A stretch of DNA of 64,000 bases from Bolinopsis microptera (Eukaryota; Ctenophora; Tentaculata; Lobata; Bolinopsidae), in contig NC_087079.1 in the NCBI RefSeq assembly GCF_026151205.1, forward strand, positions 17,044,945 to 17,108,944. The letters are read 5' to 3'. The notes under the pieces are model-generated. The model saw only the letters and a list, made by a program, of their open reading frames with translations, searched no databases and was not told where the DNA came from. Position 1 is the stretch's first letter. Each line of letters opens with the position of its first letter. Positions 16,396 to 38,969 of the stretch are shown here, piece after piece. The translations under genes and the position numbers were made by a program.

Positions 16396-16929
16396 TAATA
16401 TTTGTTTATTAAGTTGTGAGGTAGTTGATTTTTCTATTTGTTATTCCATTTCTTGTGGCTCCTAATGGGTTGAAAAATTACGACAACGGTTTTCAATAAT
16501 ATTATGTACATTAATACGTACGTTTAATCGAAATTCAAATGTGATTTTCAAACTTCAATTATAATTTTATGTATCCTTTTGTTCTTTTAAAAACACGTTT
16601 GTCATTCGAATAAGTAAAATCTTAATTGGGACTATCAGTCACATTTTTGCCGATCATAGTTTAGGCATAACGGAGCCTACATAGCCTTTCTGTCGATATG
16701 ATAATACATTAAATCAAATAATATATATAACAGATTTTATGAACTAAATATTAGTTATTGCTTAGTTTTTGGAATTTTGAAAATATTAAAGCGATAAAAA
16801 ATAATTAATAAAGGAAATTTTATCATATCCGTAAAATTCATTTTATTTTCCCGATCCATGACTGAGAAGTGCTGAAGGCACTACATATTCAAGTACAAGG
16901 TTAGCGAACGAGGTTTTTTTTTTGGTATC

Positions 16930-17190
16930 TGTAGCTTGCGACCGTACGGTTGCCCTTCCGCCCCCAGTATCGCCCCCACGTTTCTGGGCCTGCGCAAAGG
17001 TTATTTTGCGCGATAAATCTGAATTAAACAATTGTTGGCGCGCGGTGCGTGAACTGTTTTCCAAGTAAATTGTTATTTCACCATGTAACGCATCCCGCAA
17101 GGGACGTAACTGATAGCATAATAATTATTATGTTGAGTTAGTATTACAATTTTTGCCCGAGATCCGTTATCTGGTTTCCTATCTGTTAGT
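16930..17190. promoter_or_regulatory. CpG-rich probable promoter upstream of AMT
   Basis: This is an isolated CpG-rich patch (16,930-17,110) in AT-rich surroundings, with TGCGCAAAGG and TTTTGCGCGA (NRF1-like TGCGCA) and GGCGCGCGGTGCG. It lies just upstream of a presequence-like reading frame (+) and also contains an 85-codon minus-strand frame (17100-16843, MRDALHGEITIYLENSSRTA...). The latter could be the first exon of a divergent gene or chance. I see no TATA box. Inference from composition and position only. Confidence 0.3.
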
Positions 17191-17192
17191 CA

Positions 17193-17275
17193 ATGTTTGG
17201 GTTACTGAGGCCGAAAATTCTCTGAGAAGCAGTCGACATATTCTCCTGAGAAGAAACTTTTCATCCATCGAAGAG
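17193..17275 (+). CDS. AMT: Candidate AMT exon 1: mitochondrial presequence (frame uncertain)
   Basis: An ATG at 17193 starts MFGLLRPKIL and stops. The overlapping frame continues SLRSSRHILLRRNFSSIEE up to a strong donor (GAG|GTAAGT, end 17275). Arg/Ser/Leu-rich with no acids before the last two residues, this is what a mitochondrial targeting peptide looks like. A single base difference would join the ATG to it. It sits upstream of the T-protein exons, after a CpG-rich patch. No N-terminal T-protein residues are encoded here, so the assignment rests on composition and position. Confidence 0.3.
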
Positions 17276-17280
17276 GTAAG

Positions 17281-19600
17281 TTCAGTGGTCAACATTATAT
17301 TGGAAGTGGGTGGGGGGTATCGCAACAATAAACTATGCCAATTTTAATCAATTAAACTGAATTAAAAGTTGATGCAGAACTATATTGAATCAAATCAGAT
17401 AATTAAACCTAAAACATCATAACACGTATTATCGTAAACCATTTCTTTCTTACAAAAATTGATAAATTAAAACATGAAATGGAAATAATGTGCTAGTATA
17501 GCCGCCCATATGGTTAGCAACTGACACAATCGTCAGTACTAACCCTGACAGGATGCGGATTCTAAAGGGTGATGTGAAAAAATATCCAGCAACAAACACC
17601 TCTAAATCATCTCAAAACAAATCTATTCAGAAAAAATTAAAACTTTGAATTATATCAATATAGTAATCAAGGATAATGATAATTACCACACACGATTAAC
17701 AATCAACCACCAGAAAAGCACTACAAAAGAATCCCATATCGGATCATGGTAAGGTTTATTGAGATATTACACACTTGCACTAATAAATAAAGATCGATTA
17801 TAAGCTAAGGTACAAATACCTAGCAAAATGTTGACTAATTATCAAATTATGCTCCCATCACTTCATATTATAACATAAAAAACCGGTTTTATTTTTTTTA
17901 GCGACATGAAGCTTATAATAAATTATGCGTTACTTTGTTTGTTTGTTTTATAGAACCCGTCCCCAAACTCGAAGTTTCGACACATTGGGCATTACAACCC
18001 TTCATTCAATTTCCGAAATACTTGGGATTACGTGTGACAAAATTGTCATTGCCCCCAAAGTTGTTAGAGGTGTAGTTTCACTCTTCTAATAGTCGAACCC
18101 TGCGTATATAGAAAGTGAAATTGATTTTATAGTTTATTCTTCGAGCAATAAGTCTAGCTGATCCTGTAAACAATGCTGTTTGGGGGGCTGTATCAATATG
18201 TTACTACATACTAGAGGACTCAAGCTTTTTCGAACTACTTCTTAAAAATCGATAGGGGAACAGATTTCAAATGGTTATTGGACATCTTGGCATTTCACGT
18301 AAATGTTAATCTTTTTAAACATTATATCAATTTTTTTTCATTCTGAGATATGCATTTTTATAAGAACATGACCGTCCCAGTGCAAGTTTGCTGCCAAAAA
18401 GATGTCCCCGATGCTGTACAATCAATATCCGACCATCATTTCAAAAACACCTATACCTGGTGTATTATTGGGTCGTCTTAACTTTATAAGAGACAGTTCT
18501 GGCCACAGTAAAGTTTTTGTTTTCATTAGGGACATTTCCATGAACAAGCGGGAATTTTCTTGGAAAAAAGTAGAAACCTGGAGAAGATACCCTAGTGATC
18601 ATAAGAAATTATCATGTATAAACAGTATTCTCAGAGAACATTAAATAGGGGCCCTAACATCACTAAGGTAGTCATCACTAATCCACGATTCCAGGGGATT
18701 ACGGAGTTGATGAATCCGAAGAACAACACTGGAACATGGGAACAAAAAGTGGAATTTATGTTCGCCCTAATAAGCCATGAATGGTGCCCACAATAATTGT
18801 AACTGATAGATAACCAATCTAGGTATATGGGGCAAAAACATCGCAATCGCACAAAAATGACCCCGTTTTCATGGAATGAACGGAAAATGAACGCAAATTA
18901 ATATTTGGTTCAAAATTGGTCGGAAAAGAAGTTAATATTTGGTTCCTTGGACCAATCAACCAAGTTTGGGAATAATGGCCTGTCTAGAACCGGTGTAAGG
19001 GGTGGTCCAATTTTTTTCTCAAAAATCTCCTGAGTCATCTAGATTTTTGGGAAACCAATTAACCATTCTGAGCAACTTTTAGGAGATTGGTTTTATTTTC
19101 GTTCAATTATCCGTTCCTTCCATGAACCCGTCAAACGTGCTGTGGTAATTTTAAGCGACTTCCTGATGGCTCATTAAGGCCTACTTATAACTAAATCCAT
19201 CATAGGAAAACCGAATTGAGGCTTCCCAGCACTCAAATAATTAATACAGCCAAACTTCGATGTGCCCATGGTCAAAAATATGGATTCATCTACAGCATCT
19301 ACCGGGATTACTGGTTTTTTTTGAAACTTTGTCGGGTATTGCACTATTTTTCCCACGCTACGCGCGCGTTTTTAGTGTCCCACGCGCGCAGCAAAACAGG
19401 TCGTGACATGCTAGCAGTGGGTCCTTCCTACGGACTATAAAAATAGTCTCGTCATATGGAAAAAGAAAAAGTCTCGCTTTTATTGAGACAACAAACAAAT
19501 TCAACACAACCCAGCCGGGGCTTGAATTATTCTCTTTTCGTGCCCTCCATAAGAGTTCAAAACGGTAATAAACATAACAAATCCACACAGCGACTTCACG
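17281..19600. other. Presumed first AMT intron or intergenic; no exon seen
   Basis: AT-rich. It includes an 80-codon frame (18402-18644) and smaller ones without recognisable similarity. Confidence 0.35.
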
Positions 19601-19621
19601 GAGCATTAAAGATTGTTTCAG

Positions 19622-19735
19622 CTGACGAAGACATCCTGATGAATTCCACCAGAAAAAGGTGGAAAATGGTGGACTTTGCTTGATGGGCACTTCCGGTTTC
19701 CACCCGGACTTATCTCAATGTGAGTCAACATCTCC
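19622..19735 (+). pseudogene. AMT: Possible decayed AMT exon 2 (GGKMV.FAGW.LPV region)
   Basis: After an acceptor-like TTGTTTCAG the + strand reads WKMVDFA, a TGA, WALPVSTR, then NVSQHLHTRR. T-proteins have GGKMV(x)FAGW(x)(M/L)PVQY and, about 20 residues on, SHLHTR directly before the FDVSHM exon, with nearly the same spacing. One base (TGA for GGA) and one missing A in GGTGGAAAATGG separate it from an open frame. No donor GT follows HTR. Either a broken or mis-sequenced exon, a decayed duplicate, or coincidence. Confidence 0.3.
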
Positions 19736-20514
19736 ATACAAGACGGAATTTAATCTATTTTCTTAAATTTAATCTGTGTCAGTGTCTTTCAATACGCAGA
19801 AAAATTTTAATAGAATTACGTCCGTTTTCTCGACATTCCGCTTTCATGCTCTGATCAGTACAACTTTAAAACAAAATATTTTTTGTCAAAATCTTTAATT
19901 TAACACTTTATTTTTAAGTTATATTAAAAAGATAAATTCAAATCTTATGATATTGGTTATTAATCTTAACAGCTACTAATTGTAAGATTAATATTTTACA
20001 TTTGTATTCCTTGTATTCCCCTGTATTCCATGAATTCCTTTATTCATGATATGTGGAACGCTTGAGATAAAGTTCATTGTTACAGAATATTAACTAGACT
20101 TTTATCTGTGTAGGATATTGAAAGCAAAAAATACCTATACTCATGTCTTCTACACGCATAGTACAATATTCAAAGCTAAAATGTGACATTTTCAATGAAA
20201 CGTAATGCTTTTTGAATCTGCTGCGGGCAAATGACGTACGCATGGGCCAAATTTCTTATTCATTCAAGAATCCAGGCTTAAGAAGATCACAACGGATATA
20301 AAATTAAATAACACTTTGGTAAAATGGAAAACCGCACATAATGTATAAATATAATGAGTATGAAATATTTGCCGAATTTAAACGGTATTATACTATTTAC
20401 TAATTCATCAAACCAGTAAACCTTACAGCCACAAGTATAATTACCAGCACATGCCATAAAGGGCTAAGAGTTTTTTGGTAGTTTTTGAGATAAACGTAAA
20501 AAAACTACCCATTC

Positions 20515-20600
20515 TCATTTTTTTTTGGTCAACGTTAGCTTACCTATCGGGGGGGCCGGGCGGGGGGTAGTGGGGGGGGGGGAGATGGTTTCTATGAAGC
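20515..20600 (+). repeat. Poly-G / G-quadruplex-prone tract
   Basis: GGGGGGGCCGGGCGGGGGG followed by a run of 11 G. At least four G runs on the + strand. Confidence 0.75.
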
Positions 20601-21061
20601 GGTGGGGTAGGTGGCCAAGTTACGTAGACAAATCAGTCTATTGGAAATAAGTTGGGTCCCAGGTAACCTGCCCCTAATCAACCCTGCTTTTAAAAAGGGA
20701 GTGAAGACCAAAAATAGTGTAATAACTTGTTTTGGGCAAGTTAGCTAGCCATTCTTGACCTGCATATCTTAGTGGAAGTCCGAGATCCATGTTATATAGC
20801 CCTTTTATTGCATATTTTTAGAAACTGGGTCAATGCTTAAATGGCCTCCAAATCAGCATGAAAAAAAAAAAAATTAGGCCAAGAAATAGGAGTTTTAGAG
20901 CCCAAAAACGCGAATTAAATAGGTACTAATTATCTATAGTCTCTTGAGTCTTGACACCATTTTAGGGGTTATAACCCGGTTCCTTCAAGTTATGTATAAT
21001 GTACGAGAAACCCGCCGGGCCGCCCAACGTGCAAATTAGGTAAAAAGCAAAAGGTGCATAA

Positions 21062-21302
21062 GTAACCATGGTAAACGAGGTTGTTACACAGCGCACGTGC
21101 ACTGCAAGATTGTTAGAACGGCATTTTTTATCGGTTTTGCTGATTAAATACGTCGTTTACTGTTATCAGAGTGCGAGCAATATTTATAATCAGGTTAATA
21201 GCTGTATCTATTGGGTTCTGGTCAATGGATATTTTTTTAAGCCGTTAAAACTTGCTATCAAAGATGACTATTAGCTCCTACCTGTGACCACGGGTGTTTC
21301 TA
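21062..21302 (+). repeat. Interspersed repeat, inverted copy at 33.29-33.51 kb
   Basis: Begins near CCATGGTAAACGAGG and ends CCTGTGACCACGGGTG. The copy at about 33,285-33,512 is the reverse complement, with ACCCGTGGTCACAGGG and CGTTACCATGG at its ends and AACGGCATTTTTATCGGTTT-like blocks between. A small non-autonomous element of unknown class. Confidence 0.65.
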
Positions 21303-21499
21303 TTACAATTTAAACAAACGATCCGTTTTCATGATAATATGAGACAACAATACCAATACCGAATACCAACAATACAATATTGTTTTCTACATATTATCAT
21401 GTAACCCCCGATCTTGCAAGATCAGTGCTGGTGGGCGACCTTAAACACTAACTTCTACTTTGAAGAATATGGACTCTAAGCACTGAACCTTGATGAAAT

Positions 21500-21685
21500 C
21501 CCCTCCATCCCAACCAAAAACTAAGCGGCCATCGGGAAGTTAAGCAAGGATCAAGTACTTAACCCCAGGGTACCCTATAGTCAGCTTAACCTGCGACTAA
21601 CGCCGGCGAAAGGTAATACACTGGGAGACATCTTTGGGAATTTACCTCTTTCAACTACAATAGGTGCCAGCGTATTTGACTATAT
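21500..21685 (+). pseudogene. 5S rRNA-like sequence, split and degenerate
   Basis: CGGGAAGTTAAGCAAGG then TC and AGTACTT match the 5S rRNA interior around the A/C-box promoter (GGAAGCTAAGCAGGGTC...TTAGTACTT). About 60 bases later come GGGAGAC, TTTGGGAATTTACC and GGTGCCA, matching GGGAGACCGCCTGGGAATACCGGGTGCTG. An insertion of roughly 60-70 bases and several substitutions make it a pseudogene or a 5S-derived SINE head. Confidence 0.45.
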
Positions 21686-21732
21686 GGCATAGTCACGCCT
21701 GAATTGAGATAGAATCAGTGCTGTCAGTCAAG

Positions 21733-22035
21733 GGGGGGGGGGGGGGCCATTCCAAGTGCAGAATTTAAAAAAATTTTCTCTGACCACAAGCCGTGCCACG
21801 AAAACTTGTATCGGCGAGGAAACTTGTTTAACGTTTCTGGATGTGGGGCCTGATAGTAAACCATCCAACGGTGCAAAGACACTAAAACAGCTACGAGATG
21901 AAAGGGCCAAGATGCCCGGGCCCGTGAAGCCAGGGGGGGGGCCGGGGCAGGGGGGGGGGGGGGGGGGGGCGGGCAGGGGCAGGGTGGGGGGCGGGGCAGG
22001 GCAAGGGGGGGGGCTGGGGCTGGGCTGTGGGCTTT
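21733..22035 (+). repeat. Long G-rich low-complexity region
   Basis: A run of 14 or so G at 21,733, then from about 21,930 a stretch of roughly 100 bases of G runs interrupted by single C, A or T (GGGGCAGGGG type). Strong G-quadruplex potential on the + strand. A 94-codon frame crosses it (21756-22037), starting at a non-ATG codon and ending in Gly repeats. I do not consider it a gene. Confidence 0.75.
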
Positions 22036-22641
22036 AACATTTTTTTGCTCTCATCTGTAAGTTTAAACTTATCCAAGGGTACAAATAGGCGTCCAACGTC
22101 AACAAAACTTTATAGTAATGCTCTTTATATTTGAACAAAAAAATTTACACATTTTCTTTAAATCCAGTCTATTTTGGGCTCTACCTGAAAACACCTTAAA
22201 ATCTATCTCTCTACTAGACTTTCAATCTGTAAAATTTTGCTTCTTACTCTGTTTATGATTTTAATTCGAAAAATAGTCGAAAATATCATGACACGCACTT
22301 GTTGTTAACCTCATATCTCAGCTTAGGAGCAAAATATCAAAAATCGCCTCATATTTCTGTTGGACAAGACCTTGACAAACACTTTTGCTAAGTTACAAGG
22401 TGTAAACTGTAAAAGAAGAATGATTTCTGCCAAAACCTTATTTAAAGTAGAATTACAGGTAAACCTCAAAATTTTACGTGTAATATTTACAGATGGGAAA
22501 CTTTTTTTCGTTGAGGACAAAACCATTTGAAAATTTAGATCGAGCTCTACAACATAACTCAAAATCTCAAAAATGACCTCGACCCCCTGTGGCCTTAACC
22601 CTTAAGGCTTAAGGTGTCGTCACATAATCACCCAATCAATT

Positions 22642-23487
22642 TTGTTAACGAGATACACAAAACGCTTGTTAACTTTGTCATTTCATATCCGTTTTGCCTC
22701 ATTTTTTCAGATCAGGAGCAAGAGGATAAAGAATTGGATGTCACAGTACTACCTGCAACTGAATGATTCTAAAACACAACTCATAGTCTTTGGACCTAGT
22801 AAAGTGCTCAGTGAGATAGAACTTCATGGCGTTGATATAGCTCCTAACACTTTGGTAATGTTTGTGTGTACTGTTAAGAACCTTGGATTAGTAATGGACA
22901 ATCAGCTGGTATTTGATAAACAGATCGTAAATCTCAAGAAGAAATGTTTTCATACGTTATGTAATATCAGAAAAATCAGATTTCTACTGAGTCCCAAACA
23001 GATTAAGATCATCGTTAACAGTCTAGTAGTGTCATGTCTAGATTACTGTAACGGTCTGTACTTTGGTATTGGCGAGAAGCTGCTGCATCAGCTCCAGTTA
23101 CTTCAGAATGCTGCTGCAAAAGCTGTCACTGGTAAATATAAACATGACCATCTTGATGATGACCTGATAAAGCTTCACTGGTTAGATGTAAAAAAAAGGA
23201 TTGTCTTCAAAATCTTATTACTATCTCACAAGTCACTGTTAGGATTGGCACCAATTTATCTGCAGGACATGTTCAAGTATGCTCATCATGGTCACTCATT
23301 GAAGCTTATTGGTCCTTCTTGTAATTCAAAGTTTGGTGAGCGTAGCTTCTCTGTAGTGGCTCCAAAGATCTACAATCGTCTGCCTGTTACCATCACCTCT
23401 GCTCAATCTTTGGAATTTTTTAAAGCTTTTCTAAAAACTTACCTTTTCAAAATGTCTCCAGATGAACTTGAACAACTTTATCGATAA
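22642..23487 (+). pseudogene. LINE RT C-terminal part (CR1/Rex-like), 5' truncated
   Basis: A 281-codon open frame without a credible start. It contains NDSKTQLIVFG, VKNLGLVMDNQL, LSPKQIKIIVNSLVVSCLDY, LQNAAAKAVTGKYKHDH and FGERSFSVVAPKIYNRLP, then FFKAFLKTYLF. These are the post-catalytic RT, thumb and C-terminal blocks of CR1-like LINEs. The catalytic YADD block is not present, so this is a 5'-truncated insertion, still open. It lies upstream of the first clear AMT exon and in the same direction. Confidence 0.8.
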
Positions 23488-24030
23488 CTATTGTGGTCAT
23501 ATTTGGAATTCGATGTTTGCATAATATATTTAAGTACCATTTTCGGGCTTTAGTATTGACGATATATTTCAAGTATATGTTATTTTTTAGCTCAGTATTC
23601 ATGATATTTTCTGGGATGACTAGTTCAAACACTGCTGAGTATAACTATAAGATTTATCTTAAAAGCGGTGTTATTAAATTTCAATTTATTATTATTATTA
23701 ATTTATTATCTACAGACATTTCAGAAAATTGGGTGTCTAGCATGTTCGGAAAGAACATAATAGGTAATTTAATAATATATGGGCGTGGTTTAAAATATTC
23801 GAATTATGGCGACGGAATCCTCGAATTAGTAATTACAGCATACCATCCGCAAATTTACAGGTCCCAAATATGAAACTAGGGGTTGATATAATGCTTAACA
23901 AGTTAAAACAAATTGTTTATGTCGTGCATCCTGGGTTTGGACAGGATAAAATACTTCCATCGCGTTACATTACATAATTCTCGATAAATGTAATAGATTT
24001 GTAGTGTTGTAATTAATTTAAAACGTTACT
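23488..24030. other. AT-rich, LINE 3' flank and AMT intron
   Basis: No coding evidence. A 126-codon frame at 23,493-23,873 has no family resemblance and probably lies in the LINE 3' region. Confidence 0.35.
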
Positions 24031-24038
24031 TTTGGCCC

Positions 24039-24142
24039 ACACTGTACTCTCTCTCAGGGTGTTAGCATATTCACACTGTACATCTCTCTCAGGGTGTTAG
24101 CATATTCACACTGTACATCTCTCTCAGGGTGTTAGCATATTC
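24039..24142 (+). repeat. 35-bp x3 tandem repeat spanning an AMT acceptor
   Basis: Units of 34, 35 and 35 bases. Each contains ACACTGTACATCTCTCTCAG (the intron end, with AG) and then GGTGTTAGCATATTC (the first 15 exon bases). Only the last copy continues into GATGTCAGCCACATG. A 35-base step is not a multiple of three, so upstream AGs would shift the frame. Confidence 0.92.
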
Positions 24143-27100
24143 GATGTCAGCCACATGCTACAGCTTCACATCCACGGAAAAGATAGGATAAAGTTTATTG
24201 AATCCATTCTTGGTAAATAACATGTTTTCTCTGATTTGTAGCTAGCCGGCTATTATATCGTTTGTAGCTAGCCGGCTATTATATGGTTTGTAGCTAGCCG
24301 GCTATTATATGGTTTGTAGCTAGCCGGCTATTATATCGTTTGTAGCTAGCCGGCTATTATATCGTTTGTAGCTAGCCGGCTATTATATCGTTTGTAGCTA
24401 GCCGGCTATTATATCGTTTGTAGCTAGCCGGCTATTATATCGTTTGTAGCTAGCCGGCTATTATATCGTTTGTAGCTAGCCGGCTATTATATCGTTTGTA
24501 GCTAGCCGGCTATTATATCGTTTGTAGCTAGCCGGCTATTATATCGTTTGTAGCTAGCCGGCTATTATATCGTTTGTAGCTAGCCGGCTATTATATCGTT
24601 TGTAGCTAGCCGGCTATTATATCGTTTGTAGCTAGCCGGCTATTATATCGTTTGTAGCTAGCCGGCTATTATTATATGATTTGTGCAAAGATTTGGGAAT
24701 TTTTAATAATGACAGTAACTCCCCACATTTAGAATTGTATTTCAGTGGCTGATGTGGAGTCACTGGCATTAGACACCGGCACACTCTCTCTGATGACTAA
24801 CTATTGTATTTCAGTGGCTGATGTGGAGTCACTGGCATTAGATACCGGCACACTCTCTCTGATGACTAACAATTGTATTTCAGTGGCTGATGTGGAGTCA
24901 CTGGCATTAGATACCGGCACACTCTCTCTGATGACTAACAATTGTATTTCAGTGGCTGATGTGGAGTCACTGGCATTAGACACCGGCACACTCTCTCTGA
25001 TGACTAACTATTGTATTTCAGTGGCTGATGTGGAGTCACTGGCATTAGATACCGGCACACTCTCTCTGATGACTAACAATTGTATTTCAGTGGCTGATGT
25101 GGAGTCACTGGCATTAGACACCGGCACACTCTCTCTGATGACTAACTATTGTATTTCAGTGGCTGATGTGGAGTCACTGGCATTAGATACCGGCACACTC
25201 TCTCTGATGACTAACTATTGTATTTCAGTGGCTGATGTGGAGTCACTGGCATTAGATACCGGCACACTCTCTCTGATGACTAACAATTGTATTTCAGTGG
25301 CTGATGTGGAGTCACTGGCATTAGACACCGGCACACTCTCTCTGATGACTAACTATTGTATTTCAGTGGCTGATGTGGAGTCACTGGCATTAGATACCGG
25401 CACACTCTCTCTGATGACTAACAATTGTATTTCAGTGGCTGATGTGGAGTCACTGGCATTAGACACCGGCACACTCTCTCTGATGACTAACTATTGTATT
25501 TCAGTGGCTGATGTGGAGTCACTGGCATTAGATACCGGCACACTCTCTCTGATGACTAACTATTGTATTTCAGTGGCTGATGTGGAGTCACTGGCATTAG
25601 ATACCGGCACACTCTCTCTGATGACTAACAATTGTATTTCAGTGGCTGATGTGGAGTCACTGGCATTAGACACCGGCACACTCTCTCTGATGACTAACTA
25701 TTGTATTTCAGTGGCTGATGTGGAGTCACTGGCATTAGATACCGGCACACTCTCTCTGATGACTAACAATTGTATTTCAGTGGCTGATGTGGAGTCACTG
25801 GCATTAGATACCGGCACACTCTCTCTGATGACTAACAATTGTATTTCAGTGGCTGATGTGGAGTCACTGGCATTAGATACCGGCACACTCTCTCTGATGA
25901 CTAACAATTGTATTTCAGTGGCTGATGTGGAGTCACTGGCATTAGATACCGGCACACTCTCTCTGATGACTAACAATTGTATTTCAGTGGCTGATGTGGA
26001 GTCACTGGCATTAGATACCGGCACACTCTCTCTGATGACTAACGAGGAAGGTGGTATTATTGACGACTGTATTGTTCACAAATCTTCTGCTGGTTTTCTT
26101 AACCTAGTCTGTAATGCTGGCTGCGCTGAGAAAGACTTCGCTCATATCAGTGTAAGTAATTAAGTATAGATAAAATAGCTGAATGTATTTTTCACCAAAA
26201 CCCAAAATTGGGGGGGGGGGGGGGGGTGGGGCAACCATATTAAAGTATATTAAAGTATATCCCCGGGTCAAAATCGGAAAAAACCTACATTTTAATGTAC
26301 TTTAATATACCTACAATTAGTAGTTTTATATTCTTCGTTCAGATTTACAAGATAAGCCAGTTGTTACTCCCCTGAACTCATACATGAATTTACATCCAGT
26401 TTGGACAAAAATGGCCGTGTTATGAGCCAAAAACTATATGCCTATATTTGGAAACACAAACAAAATGTGATAGCTGTTGGCCCCTTAAATGAGTAAATTT
26501 CAATATTTTTTATGAGACTTTAACTTTAGGTCATAGACTAGAATACCGACAGCATGACCATGTCACAACTTAACCATGTCACAACTTAACCATGTCACAA
26601 CTTAACCATGTCACAACTTAACCATGTCTTAACCATGTCACAACTTAACCATGTCATAACTTAACCATGTCACAACTTAACCATGTCACAACTTAACCAT
26701 GTCACAACTTAACCATGTCACAACTTAACCATGTCACAACTTAACCATGTCACAACTTAACCATGTCATAACCATGTCATAACTTAACCATGTCACAACT
26801 TAACCATGTCATAACTTAACCATGTCACAACTTAACCATGTCACAACTTAACCATGTCATAACTTAACCATGTCACAACTTAACCATGTCACAACTTAAC
26901 CATGTCATAACTTAACCATGTCACAACTTAACCATGTCACAACTTAACCATGTCACAACTTAACCATGTCACAACTTAACCATGTCACAACTTAACCATG
27001 TCACAACTTAACCATGTCATAACCATGTCACAACTTAACCATGTCACAACTTAACCATGTCACAACTTAACCATGTCACAACTTAACCATGTCACAACTT

Positions 27101-30100
27101 AACCATGTCACAACTTAACCATGTCACAACTTAACCATGTCACAACTTAACCATGTCATAACCATGTCATAACTTAACCATGTCACAACTTAACCATGTC
27201 ACAACTTAACCATGTCACAACTTAACCATGTCACAACTTAACCATGTCACAACTTAACCATGTCACAACTTAACCATGTCACAACTTAACCATGTCACAA
27301 CTTAACCATGTCACAACTTAACCATGTCACAACTTAACCATGTCACAACCTAACCATGTCATAACTTAACCATGTCATAACTTAACCATGTCATAACCAT
27401 GTCATAACATGGTCATGTTAGAAAAGCTTTGTGTCTCTCTGCTTTCTCTTTTCCCACTGGGAAGCCAACAAATTATATATTTTTCGAGAAATTGTTTTTT
27501 GCGTACCTACTTTTGAAAGGTAATGTTGTTCAGGAGCGAAGAGAAGCAGCGGTCAGGTCGGGGCTGGATATCACAGTGGAGGTGAAACCACAGCATAGCC
27601 TCATTGCAGTACAGGGTGAGGCTATACAATTAAATTAGTTATTCCATGCATTCTGTTGAACTATTTGGAAATGTTCATTTGAAGTTGAGGTTATGGGTAT
27701 TTAACACAAATGAAATAATAGCTTTTTTGGCATTAGTGGCAAAATTTAACCTAGCATGTTCAAAAGTTCTGAACATTAGCCACGTGACCCATACTTACAT
27801 ATGTGCAGTACTGCCCAGGAGGAAAATGTATTGTTGTTAGGCACTATACCCGCACTATAATCGATAATGTTAACTATAAATGCGCCCGTTTTCTCGATTC
27901 AACTATTATACATTTTTATTCTTTAGTCATTGCTTATACTATTTGGTATTACTGATTAGTTGTGGAAAATTCATAATTTTATAAAGTTTTTTCATTAAGT
28001 TGTAAAATTATACTGCAAGTGCAGCGGGAGTGCAGCCTTATTTGAAGATTTCGCGGCAAAAGAAATGTTTCACTTTTCAGCTGTGCTAATACCACGTTAA
28101 TTATTCAGCGTTAATAGTACTAACTTTGGATTCGTATTACGTATATTGCTATACTGGGTCAACGAACGGGTGGGGGGGGGGGGGGGGGATCAGGTACTAA
28201 GTTCTGTACGTGACGTCGACTATAAAGTGTAATTTTGGAATTTTGTCAAAAGACCCACCCACCTCTTTCGCGGTACTAACTGTTTTTTCGGATAATAATT
28301 AAGACACCCACCCATTTTTCCGGCTTTTGTGGTACAACCTGTTGAGAAATCACGGTACTAACTGTTTCTTGGTATATAAAATATAATACCCGCCCATAAA
28401 TTGCTTTAAACAGGTCATTAAACAATAAACATTGGGAAATGGGCAAATTGTATCCACTATTTAGTAGGGGTTTTGTTTTCAATGTAGTCGAATTAGATAA
28501 AAAGTTACAAAAACCCAAAAAATCCATTCCCAAAATTAAAGTTAAAAAGGTAAAATGGGGTTTTTTTGGGGTTGGACACCCCCTTTGGAAGTTGGAACCA
28601 CGTACTAGAACTGTTTTTCTGGGAAATGTCCCATTTACTAACTGTGTTTTTGAAGAAAATATGACCCCCCCCCCCCCCCCCAACGTCACGTACGGTACTA
28701 AGTGTATGACCCCCCTCCCGCAACGAATAGTTCGACTGCCCTTGCAGCATCGCCGCTGGTTTATTCATACTTCAGCAACGAATTTTCATTAGGGCAGCTG
28801 TAATTTCTAACAAATGGGTTATCTGGAAACGGTTTAAGAAATGCTGATAGCTTTGCTTTGAACAGCTGTGTGTTTTCAATGAGGTAAAGATCTGATGGAA
28901 TGGTGTTCCATAAACGTGGCCCCATTACTGCAAATGAACCATCATACAATGACTGTTGACGTTGAGTACTGCTCTTGTTAAGACTTGGAATGGTGGCCTT
29001 GATTCCGTGTCTTGATTGAGTATAAAAATGAATCCTCAGGTCATTTGGGCAGCGTTGGTGCAAGATTTTCCCCATGTGGATGATAACATGACTTTCCACT
29101 GGGGTGGTCTATAAACCACGACGTAACACGTTTTGATGGTCTATAAACCACGACGTAACACGTTTTGATGTCAAAACGACAGAAAATTCACATTACCCCT
29201 GCACATTTCTTACAGCTATACCAGAAATGATTGACGATAGGGACCCAAAGAGATTTTTACAGCATGTAATTGTAATTAATCGAAACTTATTAAAATTCGT
29301 AACCTGTGAATGAATGGTGACACTTACAGTAATGTTTCGAACTAAAAATAAACCTGCTGAACGACTTTCAATGAGCCTTAATGCCTGAAAAAACAGTAAA
29401 GGGGGTATAATAGTATGGGAGGTATAAGGGCAACGGTCATGCTTGGCAGCACTGTGATTACGGATCGGGAAATTGAGCGGCCATCCACAAAAGACTAAAA
29501 GAAAAGCGACCGCATTTCTGTTTGAGATTTGAATAACATTACTGTAACTGTCACCAATGCAACACTGTAACACTGTTGACTGCACACTGTAACACTTCAC
29601 TCTACAGGTCTATATATACGCTGCACATCTGTTGAAATGTTCAAATGTTGCTAACATTTGATTGTCAGGGTGCCCTAATTCTAAACATTGCTCATATATT
29701 CTCTTGAAGGTGTGACGGAATAAACCATGATTCTGACGATATATCAAAGTGGGTATCTAATATGCCCTTATATTAGAATGGTACTCTATTAACAGTTTTT
29801 AACTGATTTAAATGTCATGCACATCAGATTGAAGCGTCTTTAAATTGTTTACTATTTATATTATATTGCTATGTAAATTTGATTCTAATTCTAATTCTCT
29901 ATCAAAAACGTTTAGTGGTCTATATTGCGAAGGAGCAGACTTTTGTCATCAACGTAGCGCCGTCGGGCCACCTCATTTATCCAAACCCGATTACTTATTC
30001 CCTACGATCTTTTTGCCCTCAGCAAGAGTAAGGAAAAAAAGTGGCCAAACGGGTCTTATATCTTATCACCTGATTAAGATATCGATGACGATATGTGACA

Positions 30101-33100
30101 AAGTTTGCCTAGAGGACGAGACGATTATCGTAGCCAACAAGAGTTTATATAATCTCTTAGTTTGACAAAATTAACTACACCGTACCTTTCAACAGGGGTA
30201 CTAATATTTACCTCAACTCCAAATGAACATGTCCATTTAGATTGTCCAGTCAGTTTGTAATCTGTCAACTGAGGGCCCCCCCCCCCCCAACTGAATTCTA
30301 ATGAAGAATCATACAGGACCGAAGGTGGCGTCATTTTTACAACAAGGAATAAAAGAAGATTTGTCTGAGCTGTATTTTAACCATACAGCGTTAGTTGACG
30401 TGTGGGGAATACCTTGCCGGGTTACCCGGTGCGGGTATACCGGCGAGGACGGCGTAGAGGTAAGTAAGTGTAGTAGTGCTGCTGTTTCGTGATTGTGAGA
30501 AACAAAGTGTAGCAGCTACACTGTAGCTACACTGTAGCTACACTGTTATAGCTAGGCCATGACGCTAAGTAACCTTGTCTCTCACCTTCTTTTCCAGATC
30601 TCAGTGCCAGATGACGCTGCAGTGGAGTTGGTGGAGAGACTAACCTTCATTCTTTCCCAGATCTCAGTGCCAGATGACGCTGCAGTGGAGTTGGTGGAGA
30701 GACTAACCTTCATTCTTTTCCAGATATCAGTGCCAGATGACGCTGCAGTGGAGTTGGTGGAGAGACTAACCTTCATTCTTTTCCAGATATCAGTGCCAGA
30801 TGACGCTGCAGTGGAGTTGGTGGAGAGACTAACCTTCATTCTTTTCCAGATATCAGTGCCAGATGACGCTGCAGTGGAGTTGGTGGAGAGACTAACCTTC
30901 ATTCTTTTCCAGATATCAGTGCCAGATGACGCTGCAGTGGAGTTGGTGGAGAGACTAACCTTCATTCTTTTCCAGATATCAGTGCCAGATGACGCTGCAG
31001 TGGAGTTGGTGGAGAGACTAACCTTCATTCTTTCCCAGATCTCAGTGCCAGATGACGCTGCAGTGGAGTTGGTGGAGAGACTAACCTTCATTCTTTTGCA
31101 GATCTCAGTGCCAGATGACGCTGCAGTGGAGTTGGTTGAGAGACTGATGAGTGTAAGTGACGAGGTGAAACTAGCTGGTCTTGGTGCTAGAGACAGCTTG
31201 AGACTGGAGGCAGGTCTCTGTCTTTATGGTAACGATATTAATGAGACCACTACACCTGTGGAGGGAGCTCTCATGTGGACGATCAGTGAGTAAATTTTAC
31301 TGGCAATGGCGGGCTGAGTGCTGACCATATTAAAGTATATTAAAGTATATTCCCGCCCTCAAATCGGGAAAAAACCTACATTTTAATATACTTTGATATA
31401 CCCAAAATTATTCGAGCTGTATTCTTCGTTTAGATTTGCAAGATAAGCCTGTTTTTGGAGTAGTACATGAATTTACATCCAGTTTGGTCAAAAAGTGGCT
31501 GATTTATGAGCTTAAAACCATATGCCCATATTTGGGCATACACACCAAATTTGAAAGCTTTTGCCCAAAAATCGATCAAATTTCAATATTTTTGAATGAG
31601 ACTAACTTTATGTGAAAGATATCTATATACCTTCGTCCTTCAATCATCATGAACAAAATTGCACATATCTCGGTTTGGGATATTAGCCTAAATTACTTCA
31701 TTAAAATTAAAATAAATCCATCAGTTTTCAATATTTTTGCATGAAATTTTCGGAATCGATTAAGAATTGCATTTCAAGCTTATTGTGGGCATCGATTTTT
31801 ATTTAGGCCTCCAAAAAGATACGGATATAGGTATCTTAAATTATATTAAAGTATATTCATTAGCAGGCTCTTTTTGCTACAGCAGGCCCGCACAGCCCGC
31901 TAGTAAAAGGGCCCGGAATTTTTCAGCCCGCTGATGATACAGCCCGCGAGCGAATGACATGTTTCAGCCCGCTGGGCTATATGAATAATATAGCCCGCGA
32001 GGACGAGACACAAAACGTAAACAATCTGGTAACGTGAACAATGCTATAGCTAAGTGCAGTATCTTACCCCTGTTCGGGTGTGTCCGAATTTTCAAAACCA
32101 CATTTAAGTACTTAAGTAGCCATCCAATCGAATAAGTTTTAAAGCAGTAGGAGAATATGCGAGTTGTGTCTCGGCTCTCATGAGCTGCTCTGGGAATCGC
32201 CTTCTCGTTCAAAATACAAGGATCTAAACTTACAGAGTAATTAGTGTCAATAATAATAATAATAATTCTATACAGTTACATAGTTGAAACAATTATGGCC
32301 CCTTATTGTGGGCAGAGTATGTGTCTTTGTTGAAGTGTCCTGGTATAATCTTATCTGAGTGACTGCATTAAAATAATTTAAGGAGAGTTCTCTTAAAACT
32401 TTAAAACAATTAGTGTCAAAGAGTTGAAATAAATGGGACTTTTTCGTTAATTCTGCCAAAATATTCAGAAACCCCACCCCCCCCCCCCCCCCCCCCCCCT
32501 CCTGTCCGGATTTGTCCGAAATTCCAAAACCATAGATTGCTTTTTTGACATGCCTTATTGGATAAAGATGTAAGATTTCCTACCACAGGTAAAAGACGCC
32601 GAGCGGCAAGGGACTTCCCTGGTGCTGAAAAGATCATGGGACAGTTCATTGCGAAGCCTAAAACGGGAAAAAGAAGAGTAGGTCTGGTGGTAGAAAGAGC
32701 ACCTGCTCGGCCCGGCTATCCTGTTCTCAACTTGGAGGGAGAGACTATCGGTTTGTCTAATGATTAGAAATTCATGATCGATTACACTAGACCGCCAAGA
32801 ATCAAAATTTAGAATAATACATAAAGCAACATATATTTGCTAACCGGTGCGGTGCAATTCTTGTTGGGCTGAAAGGTACGTTAAAGGAACCTTTTGGCGA
32901 CATTCTCAAATTAGACAATAGCATGTTTGACGAGCCTTGCAGCAAAAGATACGAAATTTCATGACCTATGTTCAAGTTTGTAAAATATCCGAATCTGAAC
33001 TGGTTTTTAACAAAATCTTAACCGATTAGCAAAAAAAATTGTGGAAAATATAGTGGACAGTTCCTTCATACAAATTATTATAGACATTTAAAACTGTTTC

Positions 33101-36100
33101 AATGTATCGTGATCACCCTGTAATAGGCGGGAATATACTTTTGCATTTCAACTGCGATTGCAAAGTCCCGGCCGTAGGCACGGGTTACACTAGTCTTAAT
33201 ATAAAGATATATAAATGTATTTATAATAAACGCCATGGTAGATAAGTCTTGAGGACTGACTCGTATGAAGAACAAAATTTTATTTTATGTATATACTAGA
33301 AAACCCGTGGTCACAGGGAGGAAGCTAATAGTATTTTTTGTTAGTAAGTTTAGATCGCGTCAAAAAATATCCTACACAACCGAAGATACAGCCGATTAAA
33401 ATGTTGCTCGCACTAAACACAACGTAATATCAACAAAACCGATAAAAATGCCGTTTTAACAATCTTTGCACGTGCACGTGCGTCTAACAATCCTCGTTAC
33501 CATGGTAACTACGCAACTTCCTATTTCTCGTCTGATTTTCACGTGGGCGGTCGTACAAACATTGTACAAAGATTGTACAAAGGGAATTCTCTGAATTATA
33601 AGTAAGATATATTTTTTTTGGTTTTTTTTGGTTTTTAAATTTTAAAATTGTATATATATATTTGACCAAAACCCATAATTATGGGTAGAGTGGAGCGCTG
33701 TCAGTGTCTCTCTTTCCCAAACAAAAGGCAATGATATCAATTTGAATGACCGTTATCAAATACAAAATGAAACCGAGAATGAAATCGGACGCTCGTTTTC
33801 CCACTCATTCATGGCTTACGAATTGTAATAAGTTTCGATTTATAACATGTAATCTATTTCAATTGTAAATGAATGGGGAAAACGAGCGTCCGATTTCATT
33901 CTCGGTTTCATTTTGTATTTGATAACGGTCATTCAAATTGATATCATTGCCTTTTGTTTGGGAAAGAGAGACACTGACAGCGCTCCACTCTACCCATAAT
34001 TATGGGTTTTGGTCAAATATCATCTCTTTTTGATTATAAATATAATGTAAGGGTACTTTACAAAGCCGAAATGTAAACTCATAACTTCATTAATATTATT
34101 AAAGAGGTGATTTCAACGATTTCGGAATTTAACCTTTGAAAACATTTCCTTGTGTTTAGGTAGGCATATCTGTTGATAACTGACTGAATATGACACTTTT
34201 TACTCAATCAAGTCGGTATTAAATTCATATATATAATGCCATTTAAATGTCGTGGGAAAGAATTTATTCGAAATAAGAAATGAGAAAAATTCTCACCTTT
34301 CGCACGTGCAAACTTTGAGCGAACGTTGCGTGCGCATCCAATATCAAATCACCGTAAAATTTTATTATCTTCGTATTTTATATCTAGTTTAATAAGTGTG
34401 GAAAGTTTCAGAATATTTCAGGAAGAACTCTCATCACAACGGGACTCCAAAGCTGATAAAAATCGTGAAAATACCAATTTTCAGTGATTTTAGCAATTTT
34501 CTATCATTTTGGGCGTGTCCTCACGTGTGCAACTTTTTTATTTTCAACTTTAAAACTAGCCTATGACACAATTTAGACCATTAGAAAGCAAAATTGAGCT
34601 TCACAACTCAAGGGATGGCTCAACACCAGAGAATACTAGAACGTAAAATTAGCGTTTTTATAAAATTATTCTTTAAAAAAGCATAAACTTCAATAGCGAA
34701 TATCTTTATGAAGGAGCAAGCTAGAAAAACTTTCCGGTAGATTTTCAGAATGCTTAAACAATTATCTAACTTCAATAGGTCCTCAAATTTTGAATAAAAT
34801 TACTCCTTATTGGCGTAAAATCGATTTTAAAAGTGATTACTTTGTCAAAAATAAAGTTTTTTAAATGGTTAACTTGATGACGTCATCAAGTGGTGATGAT
34901 GATGTTAAATTACTTTTTAATGTAATGTAAACTAAATTCTAAACAATTATCTTCAAGACCTGTGGTCCGAGATGGCTGTATCTTTAAAGCTTCTGAATCT
35001 ACGGACACCTAAATATAGCCTATAATTGACTGGCAAAGCGTCTATCCCTGAATATATATATGTATGTATCCCGACAATCTGTCGTAAAACAGGGGTTCTA
35101 GAAAACTCATTTCCCGATGCTCCTGAAACTTGAAACTTTTTTTGCAGTCGATTTGGTCAACGTCTAGACGCCTTGCAAAGTTTCAGATCTTTAACTCAAT
35201 TTTAACGTGGTTTTTAAGGCACCTGAATATGGCGATTTCGGGTTTTTTACCGAATTTCGTATAACAGTGCTGGCGCGTATTTTATGCAAATTTCTTAAAA
35301 ATCTCCACATAACTATTTCTTATTTCTGTCATCTTTGACATCAAATTAGAATGTTTTGAACTAAAAATAAATCTGCAAAACGACTTCCGATGAGTCTTAA
35401 TGCCTGAAAAACTCCTGCCGGAGGCGGCGGCCTTTGGCCGCCGCCTCCGGCCGGAGTGCACGCTTCGCGTGCACGAAGGAGGCTTCCAACGTGTACCAAA
35501 GGGGGTGTAATAGTAAAGGAGTTATAATAGTAAAGGGGGTATAATAGTAAAGGGGGTACATAGTATACCCCCAATAAAGACAACGCTCGTGCTTGCCAGC
35601 ACTGTGATGTATTTTTCCCTACTCTTGCCGATGGCAAAAAGATCGTAGGGAATAAGTAATCGGGTTTGGATATATGAGGTGGCCCGACGGTCCTACGGTG
35701 ACGACAAAAGTCTGCTCCTTCGCAATATAGACCACTCCCCTATAATTACGTGTATAACTATAAAAGAAGTCTATTTTACGCGCGCGACGCCAGTTATGTG
35801 TTAATTAATTACAGGCATAGCAACCAGTTTTTGGTGCTTGACGACTGTTACATAGGTTTCCATCGGGTTACAATTTATTCTAATTCATCAATATAGCATA
35901 TTAGTCATCTGAGCGAATCAATCATCAATATAAGTGTTATTTTGGTGACACAAGCTTAATAAATTACCGAGTGATAAAATTCAGCAAGTCAAAACAAATT
36001 AAATTATGATATCAGCTGATAAACTCGTGGCTGATTATTTAACAGTCGATCGACACTGAATGGTCGAATAAGCATGAAAATTTATTAGTTTATGTTAGAT

Positions 36101-38969
36101 ACAAATAATAACTAAGAAGTAAGATGAGACAGAATATTTTATTACAGTCAATAAAGTTGGCATACGATGCAATAATATGACGTGACATGATACGCATCGT
36201 TAACATGAAACAAAACCGCGCAAAATATAAAATGATCTACAACCAAACCAGGCCACATACAGATGCGCGCGACACCTCAGATGCGCGCAGAATTTTTCAA
36301 GTTCTGCACGCCTAATATAATATACACGATTATCACGTGCGCCAAACACCACTCTGGGATACAATAAAGTAGAACAATTACATGCAGTAGGGAAATTTGA
36401 TCGTGCGTGGTGTTACCCGTACCGCGGCGAAATTCTTGTTTTTTCCTTGTTTTTTTAAATTAAAAAAAAAAAAACATATGTTATTATTATTATAATATAT
36501 TTTTTCATGGAAGATAAGTGTTCTAACAGTTAACCCCCTTCACGAGAGTCTTTAAGGGGGCCGGGGGGGGGCGTCTTCATCGAAATTGATTTTATAGTTG
36601 TTTCTGGTAGAGGGGAGTGATATTTTATAGTTGTTTTTGGTCCCATGGAAAAAATATTGTTCCTAGCCGAAATTATCGCCGGTTAAAGGTCAGCGATTAT
36701 GAGTAATTGTATTGCGCGAGCGATTTTCAATCACGCGTCTTGAAAATCGAGTCTAAAAATCTACCTTCTCCTACATTATTGAAAGTGGTCACGTGACTAT
36801 AACCTTATACAGGTCACGTGACTGTAACCTTATACAGGTCACGTGACTGTAACCTTATACAGGTCACGTGACTGTAACCTTATACAGGTCACGTGACTGT
36901 AACCTTATACAGGTCACGTGACTATAACCTTATACAGGTCACGTGACTGTAACCTTATACAGGTCACGTGACTGTAACCTTATACAGGTCACGTGACTGT
37001 AACCTTATACAGGTCACGTGACTGTAACCTTATACAGGTCACGTGACTGTAACCTTATACAGGTCACGTGACTGTAACCTTATACAGGTCACGTGACTGT
37101 AACCTTATACAGGTGAAGTGACTGTAACCTTATACAGGTCACGTGACTGTAACCTTATACAGGTCACGTGACTGTAACTTTATACAGGTCACGTGACTGT
37201 AACCTTATACAGGTCACGTGACTGTAACCTTATACAGGTCACGTGACTGTAACATTATACAGGTCACGTGACTGTAACCTTATACAGGTCACGTGACTAT
37301 AACCTTATACAGGTCACGTGACTATAACCTTATACAGGTCACGTGACTGTAACCTTATACAGGTCACGTGACTGTAACCTTATACAGGTCACGTGACTGT
37401 AACCTTATACAGGTCACGTGACTGTAACCTTATACAGGTCACGTGACTGTAACCTTATACAGGTCACGTGACTGTAACCTTATACAGATGAAGTGACTGT
37501 AACCTTATACAGGTCACGTGACTGTAACCTTATACAGATGAAGTGACTGTAACCTTATACAGGTCACGTGACTGTAACCTTATACAGGTCACGTGACTGT
37601 AACCTTATACAGGTCACGTGACTGTAACCTTATACAGGTCACGTGACTGTAACCTTATACAGGTCACGTGACTGTAACCTTATACAGGTCACGTGACTGT
37701 AACCTTATACAGGTCACGTGACTGTAACCTTATACAGGTCACGTGACTGTAACCTTATACAGGTCACGTGACTGTAACCTTATACAGGTCACGTGACTGT
37801 AACTTTATACAGGTCACGTGACTGTAACCTTATACAGGTCACGTGACTGTAACCTTATACAGGTCACGTGACTGTAACCTTATACAGGTCACGTGACTGT
37901 AACCTTATACAGGTCACGTGACTGTAACCTTATACAGGTCACGTGACTGTAACCTTATACAGGTCACGTGACTGTAACCTTATACAGGTCACGTGACTGT
38001 AACCTTATACAGGTCACGTGACTGTAACCTTATACAGGTCACGTGACTGTAACCTTATACAGGTCACGTGACTGTAACCTTATACAGGTCACGTGACTGT
38101 AACCTTATACAGGTCACGTGACTGTAACCTTATACAGGTCACGTGACTGTAACCTTATACAGGTCACGTGACTGTAACCTTATACAGGTCACGTGACTGT
38201 AACCTTATACAGGTCACGTGACTGTAACCTTATACAGGTCACGTGACTGTAACTTTATACAGGTCACGTGACTGTAACCTTATACAGGTCACGTGACTGT
38301 AACCTTATACAGGTCACGTGACTGTAACCTTATACAGGTCACGTGACTGTAACCTTATACAGGTCACGTGACTGTAACCTTATACAGGTCACGTGACTGT
38401 AACCTTATACAGGTCACGTGACTGTAACCTTATACAGGTCACGTGACTGTAACCTTATACAGGTGAAGTGACTGTAACCTTATACAGGTCACGTGACTGT
38501 AACCTTATACAGGTCACGTGACTGTAACCTTATACAGGTCACGTGACTGTAACCTTATACAGGTCACGTGACTGTAACCTTATACAGGTCACGTGACTGT
38601 AACCTTATACAGGTCACGTGACTGTAACCTTATACAGGTCACGAGACTGTAACCTTATACAGGTCACGTGACTGTAACCTTATACAGGTCACGTGACTGT
38701 AACCTTATACAGGTCACGTGACTGTAACCTTATACAGGTCACGTGACTGTAACCTTATACAGGTCACGTGACTGTAACCTTATACAGGTGAAGTGACGAG
38801 TGGATCCCCCTCGCCGTGTAGTGGACTGAACATCGCAATGGCTTACGTGGACAGCAAGTACATAAAGAACGGCACCCCCTTACTTGTTCAAGTTAGGAAG
38901 AGGGTGTTTCCCGCCACTAAAGTAACCATGCCCTTCGTACCTACTCAATACTACAATCCGCCTAAATGA
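24128..38969 (+). CDS. AMT: Glycine cleavage system T-protein (aminomethyltransferase), seven 3' exons
   Basis: Exons 24128-24212, 25988-26151, 27534-27615, 30317-30459, 31102-31285, 32589-32750 and 38788-38969 splice in phase to about 333 residues. Landmarks in order: [143 protein letters not shown] and MPFVPTQYY. This is the folate-binding GCV_T domain plus C-terminal barrel. The mitochondrial enzyme moves the methylene unit of aminomethyl-lipoyl H-protein to tetrahydrofolate and releases ammonia. N-terminal residues before FDVSHM are not securely found. Four acceptors are tandemly multiplied (see repeats), so exons 2 and 5 could start at any of 19 or 9 AGs. AATAAA lies at 39014-39019. Confidence 0.93.
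24235..24682 (+). repeat. 26-bp x17 intronic satellite with palindromic core
   Basis: Seventeen units with the core GTAGCTAGCCGGCTATTATA and the link TCGTTT (two early units have TGGTTT). TAGCCGGCTA is a perfect 10-base palindrome. Each unit also has TTTGTAG, which resembles an acceptor. It begins 22 bases after the donor of the AMT exon ending 24212. Confidence 0.92.
24732..26043 (+). repeat. 69-bp x19 tandem repeat spanning an AMT acceptor, open and in frame
   Basis: Each unit is about 12 intron bases (AATTGTATTTCAG) plus 57 exon bases (TGGCTGATGTGG to ATGACTAAC). All 19 copies encode [19 protein letters not shown], and the intronic part reads (N/Y)CIS without stops. The last copy runs on into the EEGGIIDD part of the exon. 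Two linked variants, GACACC/GATACC and CTATT/CAATT, reveal a 5-unit block (copies 6-10) repeated as copies 11-15. Confidence 0.95.
26215..26420 (+). repeat. Interspersed repeat in AMT intron (copy also at 31.33 kb)
   Basis: ACCATATTAAAGTATATTAA near the start and CTTTAATATACC further on form inverted ends. The sequence continues to a TTACATCCAGTTTGG block. A second copy in the same orientation is at about 31,325-31,510 in a later intron of the same gene. A poly-G run of about 17 precedes it. Confidence 0.75.
26557..27418 (+). repeat. 16-bp x about 50 intronic satellite (ACAACTTAACCATGTC)
   Basis: Roughly 50 copies, with ATAACTTAACCATGTC variants and several short 11-base units (ATAACCATGTC). 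It fills most of the AMT intron between the exons ending 26151 and starting 27534. Confidence 0.92.
27640..28780. other. AMT intron with poly-G/poly-C tracts
   Basis: No gene. A run of about 18 G lies at 28,171-28,188 and a run of about 18 C at 28,664-28,682. Between them GGTACTAACTG-like and CACCCACC blocks recur on both strands, suggesting the arms of a degenerate inverted repeat. Confidence 0.5.
28781..29110 (-). pseudogene. LINE RT C-terminal fragment
   Basis: An open minus frame, 29099-28761, reads [20 protein letters not shown], then [18 protein letters not shown] and [13 protein letters not shown]. This is the C-terminal domain of CR1-type ORF2 proteins. It lies inside an AMT intron, antisense to the gene. 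Confidence 0.7.
29105..29175. repeat. 32-bp x2 direct repeat
   Basis: Two copies of a unit holding GGTCTATAAACCACGACGTA followed by ACACGTTTTGAT. Confidence 0.9.
29330..29470. repeat. Interspersed repeat shared with 35.35-35.62 kb
   Basis: Shared blocks: GAACTAAAAATAAACCTGC, GAGCCTTAATGCCTGAAAA, GGGGTATAATAGTA and GCAGCACTGTGAT. Both copies have the same orientation and lie in AMT introns. A partner block at 29,925-30,035 occurs inverted at 35,615-35,740 (see the next such entry). Confidence 0.7.
29790..29902 (+). mobile_element. LINE 3' tail (same family as the 45-48.8 kb element)
   Basis: TAACAGTTTTTAACTGATTT through CAGATTGAAGCGTCTT to a (TTCTAA)n-like tail matches the 3' end at 48,720-48,832 closely. 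A very short 5'-truncated insertion in an AMT intron, + orientation. Confidence 0.7.
29925..30040 (+). repeat. Repeat block, inverted copy at 35.6 kb
   Basis: GTCTATATTGCGAAGGAGCA, CGTCGGGCCACCTCATTTAT and TTATTCCCTACGATC recur as the reverse complement at 35,615-35,740. Confidence 0.7.
30270..30290 (+). repeat. Poly-C run close to an AMT acceptor
   Basis: GGGCCCCCCCCCCCC sits about 27-40 bases before the AG at 30315-30316, within the polypyrimidine region of the intron. Confidence 0.7.
30580..31164 (+). repeat. 63-bp x9 tandem repeat spanning an AMT acceptor, open and in frame
   Basis: Each unit has 18 intron bases (ACCTTCATTCTTTTCCAG) and 45 exon bases (ATCTCAGTGCCAGATG to GAGAGACT). Nine acceptors: TTTTCCAG in most, TTTCCCAG in two, and TTTTGCAG before the final copy at 31102. 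Read through, each unit adds [15 protein letters not shown] plus TFIL(F/S/L)Q without a stop. Six interior copies share the ATATCAG variant and are nearly identical, while edge copies have ATCTCAG. This is the order expected if the array grew from its centre. Confidence 0.95.
31325..31510 (+). repeat. Second copy of the 26.2-kb interspersed repeat
   Basis: See 26,215-26,420. Same orientation, shared ATTAAAGTATATTAAAGTAT and GATTTGCAAGATAAGCC blocks. Confidence 0.75.
31860..32000. repeat. Clustered CAGCCCGC motifs
   Basis: Six or so copies of (A/T)CAGCCCGC(T/G) at irregular spacing, some inverted as GCGGGCT. Looks like the remains of small palindromic units. Confidence 0.55.
32476..32508. repeat. 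Poly-C run in AMT intron
   Basis: About 30 nearly uninterrupted C, starting 80 or so bases before the acceptor at 32587-32588. Its length is likely unreliable. Confidence 0.8.
32770..33284. other. AMT last intron, unremarkable part
   Basis: AT-rich with no exon or repeat that I can support. Confidence 0.4.
33285..33512 (-). repeat. Inverted copy of the 21.06-kb interspersed repeat
   Basis: See 21,062-21,302. Confidence 0.65.
33656..34020. mobile_element. Fold-back element with ~155-bp nearly perfect arms
   Basis: The left arm (33,656-33,812) begins TATTTGACCAAAACCC and passes ATTATGGGTAGAGTGGAGCG. The right arm (33,869-34,020) is its reverse complement with almost no mismatch. The loop is about 56 bases. 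No coding capacity. Resembles a MITE or fold-back transposon. High arm identity points to a recent origin. Confidence 0.85.
34021..35340. other. AMT last intron, unremarkable part
   Basis: AT-rich. Includes TTGATGACGTCATCAA (34,872-34,887, palindromic). No coding or repeat evidence otherwise. Confidence 0.4.
35345..35740. repeat. Composite repeat with GC-rich hairpins, related to 29.3-30.0 kb
   Basis: The start matches 29,330-29,470 and the end matches 29,925-30,035 in inverted orientation. Between lie two strong hairpins: GGCGGCGGCCTTTGGCCGCCGCC-type arms at about 35,421-35,445, and GTGCACGCTTCGCGTGCAC at 35,456-35,474. Three GGGGGTATAATAGTAAA repeats follow. Confidence 0.7.
36540..36787. 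repeat. Copy of the 11.48-kb repeat module just before the 25-bp array
   Basis: GCGCGAGCGATTTTCAATC and GAAAATCGAGTCTAAAAATC match 11,635-11,720. A G-rich run (GGGGGCCGGGGGGGGGCG) lies at about 36,556. Confidence 0.65.
36788..38787 (+). repeat. 25-bp x80 satellite abutting the last AMT exon
   Basis: Exactly 2,000 bases with no length variants that I can see. The unit is GTCACGTGAC (a perfect palindrome with CACGTG) followed by TGTAACCTTATACAG. The last TATACAG is the acceptor of the final exon, which itself starts GTGAAGTGAC. Four interior units carry the exon-like GTGAAGTGAC or ATGAAGTGAC in place of GTCACGTGAC (near 37,114, 37,488, 37,538 and 38,463). Five or so units have ACTATAACC, and single units have AACTTT, AACATT or ACGAGAC. 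Confidence 0.96.

Follow-up and report, generated by a model that had tools for sequence, protein, structure and literature searches.

Boundary-spanning minisatellites at four of seven acceptors of an AMT gene in Bolinopsis microptera

Tandem minisatellites that span intron–exon boundaries have been described as 'mirages' in the Adh3 and globin genes of amphioxus, with units of 10–72 bp in Adh3 and 150–160 bp in the globins and with variable copy number (PMC3087553). RT-PCR of the globin genes and the Adh3 data were taken by the authors of that report to suggest that splicing is undisturbed (PMC3087553). Arrays of 60 and 108 bp at splice sites of lancelet PGBD5 are likened to mirages by their authors, as is troponin C, which the same paper cites (PMC3902484). 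Human CBS 844ins68 is reported as a duplicated junction of intron 7 and exon 8 at which splicing chiefly uses the distal copy (PMC2630376); the source prints 'splice donor' for this junction, which we took as an acceptor, following the title of its Romano 2002 reference. Internal tandem repeats at exon–intron boundaries are also reported from human segmental-duplication genes, on average 30 bp in four copies (PMC2812944). A paper on amphioxus huntingtin was considered as a precedent and rejected, as its passages bring up tandem repeat elements solely where the assembly is discussed. The original prediction that no case like the present locus had been described was wrong, because amphioxus mirages and CBS 844ins68 are both in print.

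Our study concerns a window of 64,000 nucleotides, the whole stretch of DNA that was analysed, in which the gene for the T protein of the glycine-cleavage system (AMT) is encoded on the + strand, where seven exons can be recognised, separated by spliceosomal introns:

24128–24212, + strand: first of the AMT exons found, placed by homology and an in-frame stop at 24098
25988–26151, + strand: exon 2, placed by the 1wsr alignment; acceptor in array 2
27534–27615, + strand: exon 3; acceptor without an array
30317–30459, + strand: exon 4; acceptor without an array
31102–31285, + strand: exon 5, placed by the 1wsr alignment; acceptor in array 3
32589–32750, + strand: exon 6; acceptor without an array
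38788–38969, + strand: exon 7, the last, including the stop codon, placed by the 1wsr alignment; acceptor in array 4

The intervening introns measure, from exon 1 to exon 7, 1775, 1382, 2701, 642, 1303 and 6037 bp. Spliced at the last AG of each array, the seven exons give 333 aa and a stop codon, and this product matches the Pfam families PF01571 (1.1e-65) and PF08669 (1.9e-20). It also aligns over residues 3–330 with the aminomethyltransferase chain 1wsr (1.5e-106), which we take to be the structure of the human enzyme, and no gap falls in the alignment where exons 1 and 2, 4 and 5, or 6 and 7 meet. Positions 1–39 of the PF01571 (GCV_T) profile are uncovered by the product. A Pfam search of the three + frames of 6001–24002 found no exon for them upstream, and two loose motif scans for N-terminal exons gave six chance-like matches each, none resembling the N terminus of AMT; a short exon can escape either kind of search. 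As the N-terminal exon or exons were not found upstream, the first acceptor is assigned its phase from homology and from the stop in frame at 24098. The minus frames of 15001–24002 contained no protein family match, and searches for RNA families and tRNAs returned none.

Four of the seven acceptors lie in tandem arrays, which TRF delimits as follows:

24038–24142, + strand: array 1, 35 bp x 3.0, spanning the exon 1 acceptor, with AGs ending at 24057, 24092 and 24127
24733–26043, + strand: array 2, 69 bp x 19.0, spanning the exon 2 acceptor, with an open frame throughout
30587–31145, + strand: array 3, 63 bp x 8.9 (nine copies), spanning the exon 5 acceptor, with an open frame throughout
36787–38797, + strand: array 4, 25 bp x 80.4, spanning the exon 7 acceptor

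The recovery of all four arrays bears out the periods and copy numbers originally predicted at acceptors 24128, 25988, 31102 and 38788, and the further claim that units are unrelated in sequence between arrays is likewise supported. Copy-to-copy matches, as given by TRF, stand at 98 % in each array. The period is constant, each array ends inside an exon head, and an AG recurs at every period step (3/3, 19/19, 9/9 and 80/80, or 111 copies in all with constant spacing). Comparison with the flanks assigned 15 exon bases per unit to array 1, 56 to array 2, 44 to array 3 (with one mismatch against the neighbouring copy) and 10 to array 4 (with two mismatches), alongside about 20 (with one indel), 13, 11–19 and 15 intron bases, respectively. 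The proposal that every unit combines an intron end with an exon head is upheld by the flank comparison, with a correction for array 4, which is mostly composed of an intron-type unit; the exon part of its usual unit agrees with the start of the exon at only eight of ten bases.

Variation among the copies shows ordinary signs of minisatellite turnover. Twelve of the 18 upstream copies in array 2 are identical to the exon over the 56 bases and the other six differ at one base; this array holds three unit types, arranged over the first 17 upstream copies as BAABABCABABCABAAA, in which the five-unit block ABABC occurs twice consecutively, a sign of growth by blocks. The variant ATC is found at both edges of array 3 and ATA in five of its eight upstream copies, the middle ones, as expected of minisatellite turnover. 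Array 4 holds seven unit types. Its upstream copies read GTCAC in 75 of 79 cases where the exon reads GTGAA, so that at least two of the ten exon bases differ (one of these copies carries a further change); the exon-type form is present in the other 4/79, exactly so in two. Because the GTCAC form dominates the copies and also precedes the first AG, array 4 is mostly made of the intron-type unit, and looks like a 25-bp unit of intronic type that has undergone exchange with the head of the exon. A direct but imperfect repeat of 11 bp, GGTCACGTGAC in the intron and GGTGAAGTGAC across the acceptor, identical by eye at 9/11 bases and lying exactly one unit apart, may have seeded the duplication.

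The last member of each array had been put forward as the acceptor, and for arrays 1 and 4 stops and frame leave no alternative. The downstream frame is intact from only one of three AGs in array 1 and one of 80 in array 4, the last AG both times, with an in-frame stop 30 bases upstream of the array 1 acceptor and 13 upstream of that of array 4; if the gene works, these two arrays must use the last AG. All 19 AGs of array 2 and all nine of array 3 are in frame and open, so that sequence alone cannot decide AG choice there, although the gap-free alignment with 1wsr at both junctions favours the last. Judged by the intron part of its unit, the last AG has no visible advantage in strength over the first, as in array 3, where the last copy reads TTTTGCAG and the first TTTTCCAG. 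It would therefore have to be position that decides, most probably by way of the short exon running from the last AG to the donor. Upstream of the last AGs, CTAAC occurs at −15 in unit 2 and −18 in unit 3, and TTCAC at −20 in unit 1; a shared branch-point rule was dropped as a general feature, since unit 4 offers only CTTAT, at −31 and −6.

All four arrays contain the acceptor in their last copy, which makes four of the seven acceptors examined, against none of the six donors. The other three acceptors and all six donors lie outside every array of 60 bp or more, and self-comparison revealed no second copy spanning these nine remaining junctions; its extra matches were 15–22 bp stretches that are wholly intronic and a 26-bp array close to the 24212 donor. 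The position of the arrays was evaluated by permutation of the eight arrays of at least 60 bp between 24000 and 38969, a set that omits four TRF arrays below 60 bp (30514, 31327, 33553 and 33612) and short rows nested in a 16-bp array; the permutation was done after the arrays had been seen and concerns one gene. Random placement put four acceptors in a last unit in 1 of 200,000 trials (5e-6). When placements were made to spare exons (exon overlap of 60 bp or less), four were reached in 0 of 20,000 accepted placements (490,142 drawn) and three at 2e-4. Containment by itself, with at least four of the seven acceptors lying in any array, cannot be called rare, at about 8 %, and it is the last-unit position that is the rare part. 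Chance placement of the arrays was thus rejected, and within this gene the result agrees with the original prediction that four of seven acceptors are hard to credit to chance.

Further repeats were observed within the introns of AMT. The 26-bp array (24235–24672, 17 copies, 99 % matches) is wholly intronic, starting 23 bases after the exon 1 donor at 24212 and excluding it. The 16-bp array of 54 copies at 26557–27397 lies wholly within intron 2, and its consensus unit has no AG. Close downstream of the exon 2 and exon 5 donors lies related interspersed sequence (26234–26330 and 31327–31420; 22 bp identical, the rest related by eye), and intron 6 contains a perfect inverted repeat at 33658–34020, in all likelihood a foldback or MITE-like element, whose 145-nt arms are separated by a 73-nt spacer. 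Elsewhere in the window, 18 copies of TTAGGG (12776–12883) lie between inverted-repeat arms at 12715–12773 and 12889–12947 (59 nt, 85 % complementary). An uninterrupted open frame at 3181–4494 has a Laminin_G_3 match (PF13385, 2.6e-14; Pentaxin, 1e-05) followed by coiled-coil-like repeats, and no second copy of it was found within the window. Reverse transcriptase (PF00078) is encoded at 45378–48377 on the + strand, in an open frame of 1000 codons that also matches an endonuclease (PF03372), and at 6885–8450 on the minus strand. Together with the spliceosomal introns of AMT, the reverse transcriptases and the TTAGGG array point to DNA that is eukaryotic and, by inference, probably from an animal. 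Clusters of tandem repeats of about 129 bp occupy 53281–63852; read by eye, their minus strand gives coiled-coil-like repeats, each some 43 residues long and containing N-x-T motifs, within frames that stay open for only some 80 codons.

The arrays are probably minisatellites of the mirage type, spanning the boundary and tolerated because splicing uses the exon-proximal acceptor. At each of the four introns, a short piece from intron tail to exon head would have been duplicated in tandem, and the arrays would then have grown as their copies underwent unequal exchange or slippage. Splicing would most likely join the exon before each array to whichever AG lies closest to the body of the next exon, removing the other copies as intron. 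Exon definition is an established principle of splicing, and a short exon bounded by the last AG and its donor could allow it to pick that AG. If the upstream copies are spliced out in this way, mRNA and protein are unchanged, so the arrays could grow almost neutrally. The anatomy of the arrays, their non-random position and the intact frame from the last AGs are direct observations. Tolerance alone does not predict the bias towards acceptors, which is seen in four of seven acceptors against none of six donors and in the failure of all 20,000 exon-sparing placements to reach four. That the arrays lie at the 3′ end of introns, and that the predicted removal of these introns restores a conserved protein, tends to speak against intron gain inside a former exon.

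The acceptor bias is what a DNA- or RNA-level process aiming tandem duplication at 3′ splice junctions genome-wide, for instance template switching near the polypyrimidine tract, would account for, as four of seven acceptors and none of six donors in one gene is far above random placement and the 11-bp repeat of array 4, one unit apart, could have seeded a duplication. Such targeting is nevertheless unlikely in our view: the evidence comes from one gene only, and published mirages are also reported at 5′ boundaries, in BflGb9 and PGBD5 (PMC3087553, PMC3902484). Array 2 ends without microhomology (1311 = 19 x 69) and array 1 with about one base, so that no common break signature is apparent. 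Either a mechanism of this kind or selection at this locus had been suggested originally, and the single gene examined neither establishes nor dismisses them. We hold with similarly little confidence the wider proposal that in this organism duplication is aimed at 3′ junctions by a mechanism tied to the junction itself. Acceptor-spanning minisatellites would then be more frequent across the genome than arrays at donors or at random exon edges, and their copies would form a standing stock from which alternative acceptors or new introns could arise.

Somewhat less likely still is that arrays 2 and 3 are coding, with upstream AGs used at least sometimes and a protein carrying variable numbers of 23- and 21-residue repeats. 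Arrays 1 and 4 are not read in frame as a coding VNTR would be, whereas arrays 2 and 3 could be, as each has a unit length divisible by three and a frame that stays open from end to end; however, two such units among four are not unusual when each has a 1 in 3 chance. The copy differences, with codons assigned by eye, amount to six in total. Those derived from the exon (GAT/GAC, ATC/ATA and GTT/GTG) are all synonymous, as a coding array would favour, but this is also expected if copies exchange with the true exon, and those derived from the intron (AAT/TAT, TTC/TCC and TTC/TTG) are all non-synonymous. Moreover, 1wsr aligns without gaps at the junctions of both arrays, which lie inside the PF01571 match. 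The least probable explanation, which we judge very unlikely, is that the arrays are artefacts of assembly. The copies vary in patterned ways, with the seven unit types of array 4 and the three of array 2, and four unrelated arrays end at acceptors, sites that an assembler does not know. The authors of the work on lancelet PGBD5 report that comparable repeats at its boundaries held up when reads were re-examined and new ones added (PMC3902484).

Taken as minisatellites spanning the boundary, the four independent arrays make AMT an extreme and clean case. If the gene works, two of them force splicing to choose the last of three or of 80 near-identical acceptors, providing a natural test of acceptor choice among such copies. 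They also test whether tandem duplication, a proposed route of intron gain, favours splice junctions or is simply tolerated at them. The bias of acceptors over donors, and its reach across the genome, is a question of wide interest.

In summary, the AMT arrays are real, their placement is not random, and they are an unusually rich instance of a kind of structure that was already known. The units cross the exon–intron boundary at four of seven acceptors and none of six donors, and their lengths of 35, 69, 63 and 25 bp fall within the 10–160 bp of mirages. Amphioxus mirages, as described, resemble the AMT arrays in unit length, in combining an intron end with an exon end and in carrying AG or GT signals in many units; they are also reported to leave a regular gene product, the counterpart of which would be the intact 333-aa frame predicted from the last AGs. 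AMT differs from them in having four affected acceptors in one gene, up to 80 copies and acceptors only, whereas the globin and PGBD5 mirages are reported with 2–7 copies and include 5′ boundaries (PMC3087553, PMC3902484). The repeats of human segmental-duplication genes are likewise minisatellites that can sit at boundaries, where they are said to be able to alter the splicing pattern; they are described from recent paralogues and as often retained in exons, in contrast to a housekeeping gene with a conserved product (PMC2812944). CBS 844ins68 shares with the AMT arrays the tandem duplication of an intron–exon junction, although it is described as polymorphic, with two copies only and at one junction; there the distal copy is reported to be strongly favoured and normal mRNA to be made (PMC2630376).
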